This document shows, in pieces, positions 1,166 through 6,172 of a DNA stretch of 6,172 nucleotides. The DNA lies in assembly GCA_029210545.1 (NCBI GenBank), contig JARGFV010000129.1, positions 1 through 6,172 of the forward strand. The letters run 5' to 3'. The first letter of the stretch is position 1, and each line of letters starts with the position of its first letter. This DNA comes from a bacterium. GTDB lineage: Bacteria > BMS3Abin14. A model generated the notes under the pieces. The model saw only the letters and a list, made by a program, of their open reading frames with translations. It did not search any database and was not told where the DNA came from. The position numbers were made by a program, and so were the translations under genes.

Positions 1166-3577
1166 TCACCGGTTCCTGTGGAGAAGCTCGAGAAATACCT
1201 TGACTGCCCCGGTAGCGTCCCCGGCGTATCCGTCGGCGCCAATCTCGCCGGCGTATTCCTGGGTCACCGCAGCACCCCCGACCACCACGGGGACCTCGAG
1301 ACCGGCCGCCCTCAACGCCTTGACGGCGTTTTTCATGTGAACCATGGTGGTGGTCATGAGAGCGGACAGGCCCACGGCATCGACCCCGGGTCGGGAAGCT
1401 TCCCTGACCAGTTCATCTGAAGGGACATTCTTGCCCAGATCCAGGACCTCGAACCCGTGGTTCTCCAGCAGGGTGATGACGATGTTCTTCCCGATATCGT
1501 GAATATCCCCCGCCACCGTGGCCATGAGGATCCTTCCGGCCGAAGGCAGGTCCTGGCCTTTCATGGCCTCACGCAGGGGTTTGAAGGCCGACTGCATGGC
1601 CTTGGCCGACATCAGGACCTGGGGCAGGAAATAATCGTTCCGGGCGAACCTTTCCCCCACCTCTGACATGGCCGGGATGAGGATCTTCTCCCCGATCTCC
1701 ATGGGACCATACCCCTGGTCCAGCAGGGCGACGGCCAGTTCGCCGGCTTTCTCCGGGTGGCCGTTCACGACGGCCCTCCCCAGGGCTCCCTCACGGTCCT
1801 CATCATCCCTGGTAGAAACGGTGCCTCCTGTCGACGGCCCGCCTCCGTAAAGAGAGATATAATCCGCTGCGTGGCGATCCTGGTTCAGGATGACACGGGA
1901 CGCGGCAAGGAGGCCCATGGAAATCTTGTCGAAGGGGTTGACGATGGCCGCGGACAGGCCCGCCCGGGCTGCCATGGAAAGGAATGCGGCGTTCAAAAAT
2001 TCCCTCGAAGGGAGTCCGTACGATATGTTGCTGACACCAAGGAGGGTGTTAAGACCCAGTTCTTTCCGGATGAGACTCACCGTCCTGAGGGCCTCGGCCA
2101 CCCGTTCCTGCTCTGCGCCGGCCGAGAGAGTGAGACAGTCGATGAGCACGTCCCGCCCGGGGATGCCCGCCTTAAGGGCGGCTGAATGAATGCGCCTGGC
2201 GATGGCAAGACGACCCTCGGCAGTGTCGGGGATCCCATTTCCATCCAGTGTCAGGCCGAGGACAGCCGCGCCGTATTTCTTTGCCAGGGGCAGGATTTTT
2301 TCCAGGCTTTTATCCTCGCCGGTCACCGAGTTTATAAGGGCTTTCCCATCGACTGCTTTAAGGCCGGCCTCGATGACCTCCGGTCGTGGGGAGTCGATGA
2401 CGAGAGGCACGGAGACCACCTGCCCGACAGCGGTGAGGGCGTCCTCCATGGCCTGCTCCTCGTTGATATTGGGGACCCCGACGTTGACGTCCAGCATCTG
2501 GGCCCCTGCTTCCACCTGCCGGGCCGCTTCTTCCCTGTAGGGATCGAAACGGCCTTCGCGGACCGCCTGGGCGAGGGTTTTGCGGCCGGTAGGATTGAGG
2601 CGCTCACCGATGGCGCGAATCGGGCTGGCCCCTCCCACGAAAAGAACGGAACTCCGACTCGACAACCTGGTGGCGGAAGGGTCCGTCAGGATCCTGTCCG
2701 ATCGGCCCGGGATCGTGTCCAGTTCCCGTCTCATGCGGGCGATGTGTGCCGGTGAGGTTCCACAACAGCCCCCAAGCAGGGCTGTCCCGATACCCAGAAA
2801 CTCCCCGAAAGGTTGAACCATCTCTTCCGGCGAAGCGGGGAAAACGGTCCGTCCGTGTTCCAGACGGGGCATCCCAGCGTTGGGCATGGCCACAAGGGGA
2901 AGCTCGGTGACCGTCGCCATGCGCCTTAGCACCTCCAGGATCCCTTCAGGTCCCAGGCCGCAGTTGGAGCCTACGGCGTCGGCGCCCACCGCTTCCAGGG
3001 TGACTGCAGCCGCCTCCGGGGAACTTCCCAGGAGGGTCAGTGCCGAGGGCTCGAAGGTCATGAGAGCGACGACGGGGATGTCGGTCACCTCCCTGGCGCC
3101 GATAACGGCGGTGCGGATCTCCTTGATGTCCGAAAAAGTCTCGAGGATGATGAGGTCGGCTCCCGCGCCGGCGAGGGCGGCAGCCTGCTGGGCGAAGATA
3201 CTTACCGCTTCGTCGAAACCGAGTTCACCCACAGGATGCAGAAAACGTCCCGTAGGCCCCACGCTTCCCGCCACGAGAGCGTCGCCGGAAGAGGCTTCCT
3301 TCGCCACCCTCACGGCGGCTTCGTTGAGTTCTTCAGTCCGGTCCTCGAGGCCGAAGGAGGACAGTTTGACCCTGCTGCCGCCGAAGGTGTTGGTTTCGAT
3401 GATATCGGCGCCGGCATCGATATAGGCGCGATGAACCGATCGCACCCTTTCGGGAGAATGCACGTTGAGCAGTTCCGGACACTCTCCCGGTGCCAGCCCC
3501 GCCTCCTGGAGCATGGTTCCCATGGCTCCGTCGCACAGAAGGGTACGGTTTTTGATCAGGTCTTTGAATCGGCTCAC
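1166..3577 (-). CDS. metH: Cobalamin-dependent methionine synthase, short form without reactivation domain
   Basis: The enzyme transfers the methyl group of 5-methyltetrahydrofolate through cobalamin to homocysteine, giving methionine in the cytoplasm. The 803 residues hold four domains in order. The homocysteine S-methyltransferase barrel (about 1-290) has DGAMGT at 16-21 and zinc ligands Cys206 (GSNCG), Cys271 and Cys272 (GGCCG). The pterin-binding barrel (about 318-575) has GERLNPTGR at 324-332, DVNVG at 363-367 and GVSNISYGLP at 514-523. The helical cap (about 606-685) has YFLPQVLMSA at 649-658. The B12-binding Rossmann domain (about 686-800) has GDIHDIGKN at 690-698, where His693 is the lower cobalt ligand. 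The C-terminal AdoMet-binding reactivation domain of the roughly 1200-residue E. coli enzyme is absent, as in Thermotoga and many anaerobes. Some related short proteins act on other methyl donors, so the substrate is probable rather than proven. The start is a GTG with AGGAG eight bases upstream. Confidence 0.93.
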   Translation of the reverse strand: MSRFKDLIKNRTLLCDGAMGTMLQEAGLAPGECPELLNVHSPERVRSVHRAYIDAGADIIETNTFGGSRVKLSSFGLEDRTEELNEAAVRVAKEASSGDALVAGSVGPTGRFLHPVGELGFDEAVSIFAQQAAALAGAGADLIILETFSDIKEIRTAVIGAREVTDIPVVALMTFEPSALTLLGSSPEAAAVTLEAVGADAVGSNCGLGPEGILEVLRRMATVTELPLVAMPNAGMPRLEHGRTVFPASPEEMVQPFGEFLGIGTALLGGCCGTSPAHIARMRRELDTIPGRSDRILTDPSATRLSSRSSVLFVGGASPIRAIGERLNPTGRKTLAQAVREGRFDPYREEAARQVEAGAQMLDVNVGVPNINEEQAMEDALTAVGQVVSVPLVIDSPRPEVIEAGLKAVDGKALINSVTGEDKSLEKILPLAKKYGAAVLGLTLDGNGIPDTAEGRLAIARRIHSAALKAGIPGRDVLIDCLTLSAGAEQERVAEALRTVSLIRKELGLNTLLGVSNISYGLPSREFLNAAFLSMAARAGLSAAIVNPFDKISMGLLAASRVILNQDRHAADYISLYGGGPSTGGTVSTRDDEDREGALGRAVVNGHPEKAGELAVALLDQGYGPMEIGEKILIPAMSEVGERFARNDYFLPQVLMSAKAMQSAFKPLREAMKGQDLPSAGRILMATVAGDIHDIGKNIVITLLENHGFEVLDLGKNVPSDELVREASRPGVDAVGLSALMTTTMVHMKNAVKALRAAGLEVPVVVGGAAVTQEYAGEIGADGYAGDATGAVKVFLELLHRNR

Positions 3578-3590: not shown

Positions 3591-3594
3591 AAAT

Positions 3595-3622
3595 ATTCAG
3601 TAGTCAGAAGTCAGTAGCCGGT
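3595..3622 (+). repeat. Left arm of a long-range 28-base inverted repeat
   Basis: This arm is complementary to 4198-4225 at 26 of 28 positions. It lies four bases upstream of the methionine synthase ribosome binding site and would be part of that mRNA leader. The partner arm lies in the leader of the opposite operon. Confidence 0.75.
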
Positions 3623-3645
3623 AACAAATAACTCAAATTGTAACC

Positions 3646-3806
3646 GTTGATAGAGTCGCAAAAAGTCCAATCCGGGACTTTTTGCTCCACGGAAAGGGAA
3701 AAGCGTCGTTTTCCCTTTCCTTACAAATCAATGACTTACGGTGTAACTCATTGATTTGGGCGCCCCACGCGGGGCGCGTTGATGGACTTTTTGCGAGTCC
3801 ATCAAC
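3646..3806 (+). repeat. Multi-hairpin intergenic repeat, complete copy 2, with inverted ends
   Basis: Five hairpins tile the element: 3658-3668/3675-3685 (11 pairs), 3691-3702/3709-3720 (12 pairs), 3725-3734/3748-3757 (10 pairs), 3760-3766/3771-3777 (7 pairs) and 3778-3788/3796-3806 (11 pairs). Gaps between them are zero to five bases. The outer 23 bases (3646-3668 and 3784-3806) are inverted repeats matching at 21 positions. The 7-mer aaccgtt occurs at 3642-3648 and again at 3804-3810, which would fit a target duplication around a core of 3649-3803. No protein is encoded. The structure is seen directly. Movement by a transposase supplied elsewhere, or a function as RNA, is inference. Confidence 0.9.
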
Positions 3807-3907
3807 CGTTCATTCTTCCTTTTTATACCGGGTCGCAAACGAACGTTTTTTTTCTGAAAACTGAGAATGTTACGTTATCGGCTACCTTCCTATAGAAAAC
3901 GCCTATA

Positions 3908-3934
3908 GGTATAGTATAAGGTTAGAAAAATCAA
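3908..3934 (-). promoter_or_regulatory. Weak candidate promoter for the metH-lysR operon
   Basis: On the minus strand TTGATT (3929-3934) is followed after 15 bases by TATACC (3908-3913), in an AT-rich patch that stands out from GC-rich surroundings. The spacing is short and neither box is perfect. If it is used, the transcript leader would be over 300 bases and would carry the whole multi-hairpin element in antisense. Confidence 0.2.
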
Positions 3935-4085
3935 GGGTCTGGGAAACAGGGTCTGGGAAATGAGCGGGATCTGGAGTCCAGGGTCCAGCCTTCGCGTGAA
4001 GCTGCGGCTGGCAGGCTGGGGTTCAGGAATAACGCCCACCTGGAACCTGGATGCCAGACACAAGACACAAGTAACTTTCCTTCCG

Positions 4086-4197: not shown

Positions 4198-4225
4198 ACC
4201 GGCTACTGACTACTGACTACTGGAT
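4198..4225 (+). repeat. Right arm of the long-range 28-base inverted repeat
   Basis: This arm is complementary to 3595-3622 at 26 of 28 positions. It includes most of the three ctactgR heptamers, so the inverted repeat may be two insertions of the same heptamer-type repeat in opposite orientation rather than the ends of one mobile unit. Confidence 0.75.
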
Positions 4226-4257
4226 ACCGGATACTGGATACCAGCGCGGAGAGACTC

Positions 4258-5430
4258 ATGCGGCAGCCGTCAGAGAGATCGAGGAACATCCCCCCCTTTA
4301 TCGTCATGGATGTCCTGGAAAGGGCCCAGAAGATGGAGCGGGCCGGGAGAACTGTCATTCACATGGAGGTGGGCGAACCTGATTTCGATACCCCCGAGGT
4401 TATCCGGATGGCGGCGGCGGAAGCGCTGGAGAGGGGGGAGACCAACTATACCCACAGCCTGGGGCTCCTGGAACTGAGGGAGGCCATAAGCGAGCATTAC
4501 GATCGCAGGTACAGTGTGCGGGTGGACCCGGACTGTATCCTCGTCACTTCGGGGACCTCTCCCGCGCTGTTCCTTGCTTTTGCGGCCTTATTGGAGCAAG
4601 GGGAGGTGGTGGTGATGAACGATCCCCATTACGCATGTTACCCCAACTTCGTATCGTTTCTCGGGGGACGCCCCCTTTTCTCCCCGGTCCATGCGGTGGA
4701 TGGTTTCATGCCGGATGTTCGGGAGATGGCCCGTCAGGTGACGTCCGACACCGCGGCGATACTCATCAACTCGCCGGGCAACCCCACGGGAGCTGTCTGG
4801 CCCGGTGAGAGCCTCGGGCAGATCGCTCAACTCGGGGTACCGGTAATCTCTGACGAGATCTACCACGGCCTTGTGTATGGGACCAGGGAGCAGAGCATCC
4901 TCGAGTTTACGGATGAGGCGTTCGTCCTCAACGGCTTTTCCAAGCTTTACGCCATGACCGGGTGGAGGCTCGGATACGTTATTGCTCCTCGCCGGTTTAT
5001 CCGCCCCATGCAGAAGATCCAGCAGAACTTTTTCATCTCTGCAGCGGCCTTTGTCCAGAAGGCCGGGATCGCGGCCTTGACCCAGGCCGGTGGGGAAGTG
5101 GCGGAGATGGTCCGGGTCTACGACGAAAGGCGGCAGCTGCTCGTGAAAGGGATCCGGGAGATCGGTCTGCCGGTTCCTGTGGACCCGCAGGGTGCGTTTT
5201 ATGTGCTGGTGGATGCGAGGCAATTGGGTGCGGATTCCTACAAACTGGCTTTCGATATACTCGAGCGGACGGGTGTGGCTGTGACGCCGGGGATCGATTT
5301 CGGCCCTGGGGCGGAAGGCCACCTGCGTTTTTCCTACGCCAACTCCAGTGAAAACCTTACGGAAGGCCTCCGCCGCCTGTCAAAATATGTGAAGGAGGTT
5401 ACCTGTGAAGCAATCCAGGAGCCTGTCTGA
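4258..5430 (+). CDS. PLP-dependent class I/II aminotransferase
   Basis: This is a 390-residue cytoplasmic fold-type I aminotransferase of normal full length. Visible landmarks are GEPDFDTP at 39-46, TSGTSPA at 97-103, Tyr125 in the DPHYACYPN segment, NSPGNPTG at 171-178 with Asn175, SDEIYHG at 198-204 with Asp199 (pyridine nitrogen) and Tyr202, the Schiff-base lysine Lys229 in NGFSKLYAMTGWRLGY, and Arg357 in GHLRFSY, which should bind the substrate carboxylate. The sequence fits the broad aspartate/alanine/aromatic aminotransferase group. I cannot assign the amino donor from sequence alone, so no gene symbol is given. The ATG has GGAG six bases upstream (4248-4251). The 3' end overlaps the lipoprotein gene by 26 bases, so the two are expected to be co-transcribed. 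It is divergent from the methionine synthase gene, but no direct pathway link is evident. Confidence 0.94.
   Translation: MRQPSERSRNIPPFIVMDVLERAQKMERAGRTVIHMEVGEPDFDTPEVIRMAAAEALERGETNYTHSLGLLELREAISEHYDRRYSVRVDPDCILVTSGTSPALFLAFAALLEQGEVVVMNDPHYACYPNFVSFLGGRPLFSPVHAVDGFMPDVREMARQVTSDTAAILINSPGNPTGAVWPGESLGQIAQLGVPVISDEIYHGLVYGTREQSILEFTDEAFVLNGFSKLYAMTGWRLGYVIAPRRFIRPMQKIQQNFFISAAAFVQKAGIAALTQAGGEVAEMVRVYDERRQLLVKGIREIGLPVPVDPQGAFYVLVDARQLGADSYKLAFDILERTGVAVTPGIDFGPGAEGHLRFSYANSSENLTEGLRRLSKYVKEVTCEAIQEPV
5392..5399 (+). promoter_or_regulatory. Strong Shine-Dalgarno of the lipoprotein gene
   Basis: AAGGAGGT lies five bases before the GTG at 5405, inside the coding sequence of the aminotransferase. 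Its near-perfect match to the 16S anti-SD sequence supports the GTG start and the unusual 26-base gene overlap. Confidence 0.85.
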
Positions 5431-6072: not shown

Positions 6073-6155
6073 GATAGAGTCGCAAAAAGTCCAGGCGGGA
6101 CTTTTCGCTCCACGGAAAGGGAAAAGCGTCGTTTTCCCTTTCCTTACAATGACTG
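6073..6155 (+). repeat. Multi-hairpin intergenic repeat, shortened copy 3
   Basis: It begins gatagagtcgc, the same left boundary proposed for copy 2 (3649), although the preceding bases differ. Hairpin 1 (6082-6092/6098-6108) has 10 of 11 pairs and a different loop, aggcg. Hairpin 2 (6114-6125/6132-6143) is identical to that in the other copies. After ttac the sequence appears to lose five bases of hairpin 3, continues as aatgact, and then diverges. Hairpins 3 to 5 are not visible before the window ends. Confidence 0.8.
6082..6108 (+). terminator. Possible terminator formed by hairpin 1 of repeat copy 3
   Basis: An A5 tract, gtcc, a 5-base loop, ggac and a T4 tract follow the lipoprotein stop by about 26 bases. 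The GC part of the stem is only four pairs, so this would be a weak intrinsic terminator, possibly aided by the 12-pair hairpin just beyond it. Position after the operon is the main support. Confidence 0.3.
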
Positions 6156-6172
6156 CTGATAGATCACCAAAG

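Follow-up and report, generated by a model that had tools for sequence, protein, structure and literature searches.

Structure and limits of the hairpin block

What is the sequence at positions 3646-3806 of this contig, which is built almost wholly of hairpins and lies between two divergent genes, and why does it recur at other places nearby? The window, that is, the whole stretch of DNA analysed, is one entire contig of 6172 bp (C129) of the genome of the uncultured host (G000), a draft of 2.72 Mb in 241 contigs. Our answer, to which we assign a probability of about 0.9, is that the block is a copy of a MITE of an apparently undescribed family, with an IS1182-like DDE transposase as its probable mover. 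The five adjacent hairpins are separated by gaps of 5, 3, 1 and 0 bases, and the folding energy of 3646-3806, calculated either for RNA (-86 kcal/mol, z -10.6) or for DNA (-52 kcal/mol, z -10.5), was not reached by any of 200 shuffled sequences, which bears out the five tiled stems of 7 to 12 pairs, with 0 to 5 bases between them, of the preliminary description. The limits given there hold for the hairpin block but not for the mobile unit, whose borders were set by aligning elements together with their flanks. This unit occupies 3649-3803, and the outermost bases of the block (GTT at 3646-3648 and AAC at 3804-3806) are part of a target duplication. The terminal inverted repeats are of about 20 bp, the right end being a near reverse complement of GATAGAGTCGCAAAAAGTCC.

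1166-3577, - strand: metH-like gene, left neighbour of the complete copy (identified by reading the translation only)
3642-3648, + strand: left target-site duplication AACCGTT (7 bp, 0 mismatches)
3649-3803, + strand: complete mobile unit of 155 bp (copy 2), bordered by terminal repeats and a perfect duplication, with the same border as the IS ends and the empty sites
3649-3668, + strand: left terminal inverted repeat GATAGAGTCGCAAAAAGTCC, from the alignment of elements with flanks
3658-3685, + strand: hairpin A, 11 pairs
3691-3720, + strand: hairpin B, 12 pairs, 4 with two-sided changes
3724-3758, + strand: hairpin C, 11 pairs plus 4 apical pairs, 6 pairs with two-sided changes
3760-3777, + strand: hairpin D, 7 pairs, 2 with two-sided changes
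3778-3806, + strand: hairpin E, 11 pairs, with the right terminal repeat inside
3784-3803, - strand: right terminal inverted repeat, GATGGACTCGCAAAAAGTCC as read on this strand
3804-3810, + strand: right target-site duplication AACCGTT (7 bp, 0 mismatches)
4258-5430, + strand: aminotransferase-like gene, right neighbour of the complete copy (identified by reading the translation only)

Other intergenic repeats of the window are found here, at 3594-3622 and 4198-4242, and also at 3934-3960. They comprise degenerate 7-bp tandem repeats (CTACTGA, TACCGGA), which lie in inverted orientation around the intergenic region, and a 14-bp unit, AGGGTCTGGGAAAC, which is present twice. In G008, short intergenic matches of a similar kind, to queries from G003, recur across the genome.

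Copies in the window, the host and its relatives

Besides the complete copy, the window contains the following:

1-141, + strand: copy 1, 91% identical, its left end missing, cut by the contig start alone
148-172, + strand: left end, truncated, of a further copy, joined to copy 1 via AACTTT (142-147)
6073-6172, + strand: copy 3, the first part of a long modular variant, interrupted by the contig end

Copy 3 continues into the next hairpin module (CAATGACTGCTGATAGATCACCAAAG) up to the end of the contig, as in a 271-bp variant found elsewhere (L029, 17049-17319). The recurrence noted earlier at 1-144 thus stands, with the copy itself at 1-141, whereas the copy taken as partial at 6073-6155 is not partial: it runs to 6172 and only the contig end cuts it. 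Many other host contigs also start or stop inside repeat copies. As both ends of this contig fall inside copies, the presence of three copies within 6 kb is partly an assembly effect.

The host and its relatives were searched with a covariance model of 42 copies, which gave at least 154 matches in the host genome (2.7 Mb), at least 150 in G004, at least 151 in G003 and from 13 to 141 in eight other genomes. With more than 150 copies, the idea that no further copies exist was clearly refuted. The repeat was present in 11 of the 12 genomes available for the phylum, all twelve of which come from one family. No copy was detected by the model in the complete genome G001, the only member of that family without any, which offers a natural element-free genome for comparison, and there was no match in 19 genomes of other families. 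Scanning GTDB-220 with a strict pattern matched one genome, MAG ZodW_Metabat.265 (G006). In a separate count, the end motif gave 344 matches against 2 for the reversed motif. No Rfam family matched at its gathering threshold, in agreement with the earlier view that the family may be undescribed; the only matches, AS-pc01 (35.4 bits, threshold 79) and mir-1179 (20.8 bits, threshold 80), were rejected as identities, their scores being far under threshold.

Target duplications and empty sites

A direct repeat of 6 bp, sometimes 7 bp, lies directly outside the element ends. The host and nine relatives supplied 85 copies for a test, of which 35 showed a perfect 6-bp duplication, compared with a mean of 2.6 and a maximum of 8 after shuffling of the right flanks, and the consensus of the duplicated target was AANNTT. 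The duplication score was 5 or higher in 18 of 36 elements (control mean 1.5, maximum 5), and about half of the copies lacked a clean duplication. These target duplications point to a DDE-type transposase as the inserting enzyme.

An orthologous empty site was identified for two copies, and in one case it is letter-perfect at the junction. There, the filled site of G003 (contig C28) reads ...CCAAAGGTT[GATAG...CATC]AAAGGTTAAGG... and the empty site of G011 (contig C61) reads ...CCAAAGGTTAAGG..., an intact sequence with a single AAAGGTT where G003 has two. The second pair comprises a filled site in G004 (contig C2) and an empty one in G009 (contig C10), the aligned flanks of which overlap by 6 bases. 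At three more orthologous sites in G003/G011, and at one in G004/G009, rearrangement prevented an empty-site reading. Outside this repeat family, G011 carries an insertion of about 150 bp relative to G003 (contig C101 of G011, 1979-2131, against L087, about 4920-4927), perhaps another small insertion.

Size variants built from hairpin modules

Elements sharing the same ends were found in sizes of 46, 87, 154-155, 167, 175, 188-195, 234, 271, 369 and 564 bp. The 46-bp form consists of the two ends alone, and such module-free copies also have target duplications; longer forms gain A-B-type or C-D-type hairpin pairs, diverged in sequence yet with pairing kept. The internal hairpins are optional modules, whose gain or loss changes the size of the element.

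A probable partner insertion sequence

A search for DDE_Tnp_1 within the taxonomic family revealed, on host contig C1 (L048, 1241-2905), an insertion sequence of 1665 bp with ends GACGGCATCGCAAAAAGTAT and GATGGACCCGCAATTAGTCA and one ORF of 520 aa, which matches DUF772, DDE_Tnp_1 and the IS1182 model (E 1.6e-33). It resembles the IS1182 family in combining DUF772 and DDE domains and in matching that model, but differs in scoring below the family cut-off (116 bits against 270 in NCBIfam), and for this reason we call it IS1182-like and not IS1182. Homologues in G009 and G007 share this left end, with the gene at equal distance. In all three genomes the left end starts exactly at the MITE border, the flanks outside it being unrelated, and is preceded by AATATT, AATAAT or AAGGTT, which are AANNTT-like. 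The MITE and the insertion sequence have only their ends in common. Of the 11 genomes that have the element, just 3 had copies of the latter and a fourth had a fragment; its best plasmid relative, from Microvirga, is 36% identical. The host copy lacks a segment, RYRFRAGVEATMSYLNRKTGVKRLRVRG, that is present in the G007 copy and looks like the putative catalytic-glutamate region; the host copy is therefore probably dead, and the host yielded no intact source. Another DDE transposase, of 464 aa in G003 (L050), was rejected as partner because its ends differ; the insertion sequence that carries it (L050, 993-2900, on contig C29) adjoins one long modular and one truncated MITE copy.

We consider this IS1182-like insertion sequence, which shares the ends of the MITE, the probable source of MITE mobility. 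Judging from the shared ends, its transposase would recognise the roughly 20-bp termini (GAYRG..TCGCAAAAAGT) and would excise or copy the element and insert it at AANNTT, duplicating 6 (sometimes 7) bp; mobilisation of the MITE in trans is a probable step. The elements themselves are short (46-564 bp) and non-coding, with terminal inverted repeats of about 20 bp and without an internal transposase gene, and they come with target duplications of 6 (7) bp, empty orthologous sites and an insertion sequence that shares their ends. The earlier suggestion of a mobile element from an undescribed family is therefore supported, by the terminal inverted repeats as well as by the target duplications, the empty sites and the partner insertion sequence.

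Covariation of the stems

In a comparison of 42 diverse copies, pairing held in 91% of stem cells, and changes on both sides were seen at 18 pairs, a number reached by none of 500 shuffles and to be compared with 4-9 for slid structures. A multiloop closed by pairing of the terminal repeats, which would replace hairpins A and E, was slightly worse (15 two-sided pairs against 18) and was rejected: hairpin A shows a compensatory change in G005 and G010 (GTAAAAA/TTTTTAC) that the right end does not follow. Single mismatches of the GT type (183) and of the AC type (178) were equally common, and hence there was no sign of selection on one RNA strand, one caveat being that insertion in random orientation would likewise equalise the two. 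In stems B and D and the outer part of C, two-sided cells outnumbered GT-intermediate cells by about nine to one (about 63 against 7), these being counts of cells and not of events. The co-change of stem arms most likely reflects palindrome correction, by template switching or gene conversion between the arms, together with tolerance of or selection for perfect DNA hairpins, rather than a strand-specific RNA function.

It is also conceivable, though we think it unlikely, that the modules are not passengers at all and that perfect DNA palindromes are kept by selection, through a host or transposase protein reading the folded DNA, or by active palindrome correction. Stems B-D keep their pairing through two-sided changes across seven genera and long variants repeat the modules with pairing kept, as this idea would have it; against it, the 46-bp copies carry duplications without any module, and G001 lives without the family. 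Such a reading of the hairpin modules would add to the MITE explanation and not replace it, and as an account of the locus we regard it as improbable.

Alternatives to a DDE-mobilised element

REP/BIME-type repeats (REPINs) are moved as single-stranded hairpins by RAYT, a Y1 tyrosine transposase. The present elements resemble them in being hairpin-rich and intergenic with compensatory changes (PMC3116915), and Y1 transposases occur in 8 of the 12 genomes, one of them near a copy on host contig C150. Nevertheless, no element end lay within 1.5 kb at 12 of 14 Y1 loci, G001 has two Y1 genes and no elements, and four genomes (G006, G007, G010 and G011) have elements without a Y1 match. Moreover, the 6-7 bp duplications and the empty sites indicate a DDE enzyme, and target duplications are not known from Y1 enzymes. 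As Y1 genes do not travel with the element, a RAYT origin was rejected and we give it very little credence. The Y1-type transposases of the host include a RAYT-like ORF of 243 aa (L160, contig C150) and an IS200-like ORF of 144 aa (L152, contig C27).

Equally small is the chance that selection has spread the block as a cis-acting RNA element, for example a terminator, a processing site or a stabiliser of mRNA. Its very stable fold, strong covariation and a single terminator-like match at 3778-3806 would suit such a role; on the other hand, the stems lack a clear T-run after them, GT and AC mismatches are balanced (with the caveat already given), and insertion is evident from the duplications and empty sites. 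Mapping of 36 complete elements in 383 kb relative to genes, as had been proposed, showed an intergenic placement with 15 in tandem, 10 in divergent and 6 in convergent gaps, besides 1 at an edge and 4 that overlapped the end of a gene; of those in tandem gaps, 8 had the orientation of the genes and 7 the opposite one, indicating no orientation bias. Since all gap types are occupied in both orientations, and the window copy itself lies between divergent genes, the copies do not behave as a terminator or mRNA element, and the earlier proposal of an mRNA-stabilising structure or processing site found no support.

Relation to known repeats and significance

Correia/NEMIS, RUP and ERIC repeats are palindromic, intergenic sequences of 100-160 bp in high copy number, and Correia and RUP elements have TA as target. 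The MITE family described here is likewise palindromic, intergenic and abundant, but it uses AANNTT with a 6-7 bp duplication and its ends differ. REPINs and BIMEs (PMC3116915) share with it hairpins with compensatory changes, an extragenic location and a high copy number, but here target duplications are made and the association with RAYT is inconsistent. The paper in which RUP is described (PMC3049150) also covers BOX of Streptococcus pneumoniae, a mobile, intergenic and highly folded element of 67-637 bp with a boxA-boxB(n)-boxC arrangement. Likened by this published architecture and not by sequence, the present family (46-564 bp) has the same inverted terminal repeats, target duplications, conserved left and right modules and variable number of inner modules; unlike BOX, it resides in an unrelated host, each module is a separate hairpin whose pairing is concertedly kept, and a probable IS1182-like parent has been identified. 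Compared by description only, as far as the available accounts go, it is also similar to the Chunjie MITE of Geobacter uraniireducens (size-variable, with conserved ends and duplications; cited in PMC10969869) and to sequences present in many copies in G. metallireducens and G. bemidjiensis (abundant and intergenic; PMC2700814, PMC2996986), from which it differs in lineage.

The family is apparently new but ordinary in kind, the type of element being already known. It is the dominant repeat of a little-known lineage, now delimited, and explains the assembly breaks at its copies. It adds a second and apparently independent example of modular MITEs of the BOX type, one for which a parent transposase is likely. 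The covariation of its stems provides material for asking how non-coding palindromes stay perfect and, if the hairpin modules are not passengers, the family would document, in nature, how the arms of stems evolve in concert.
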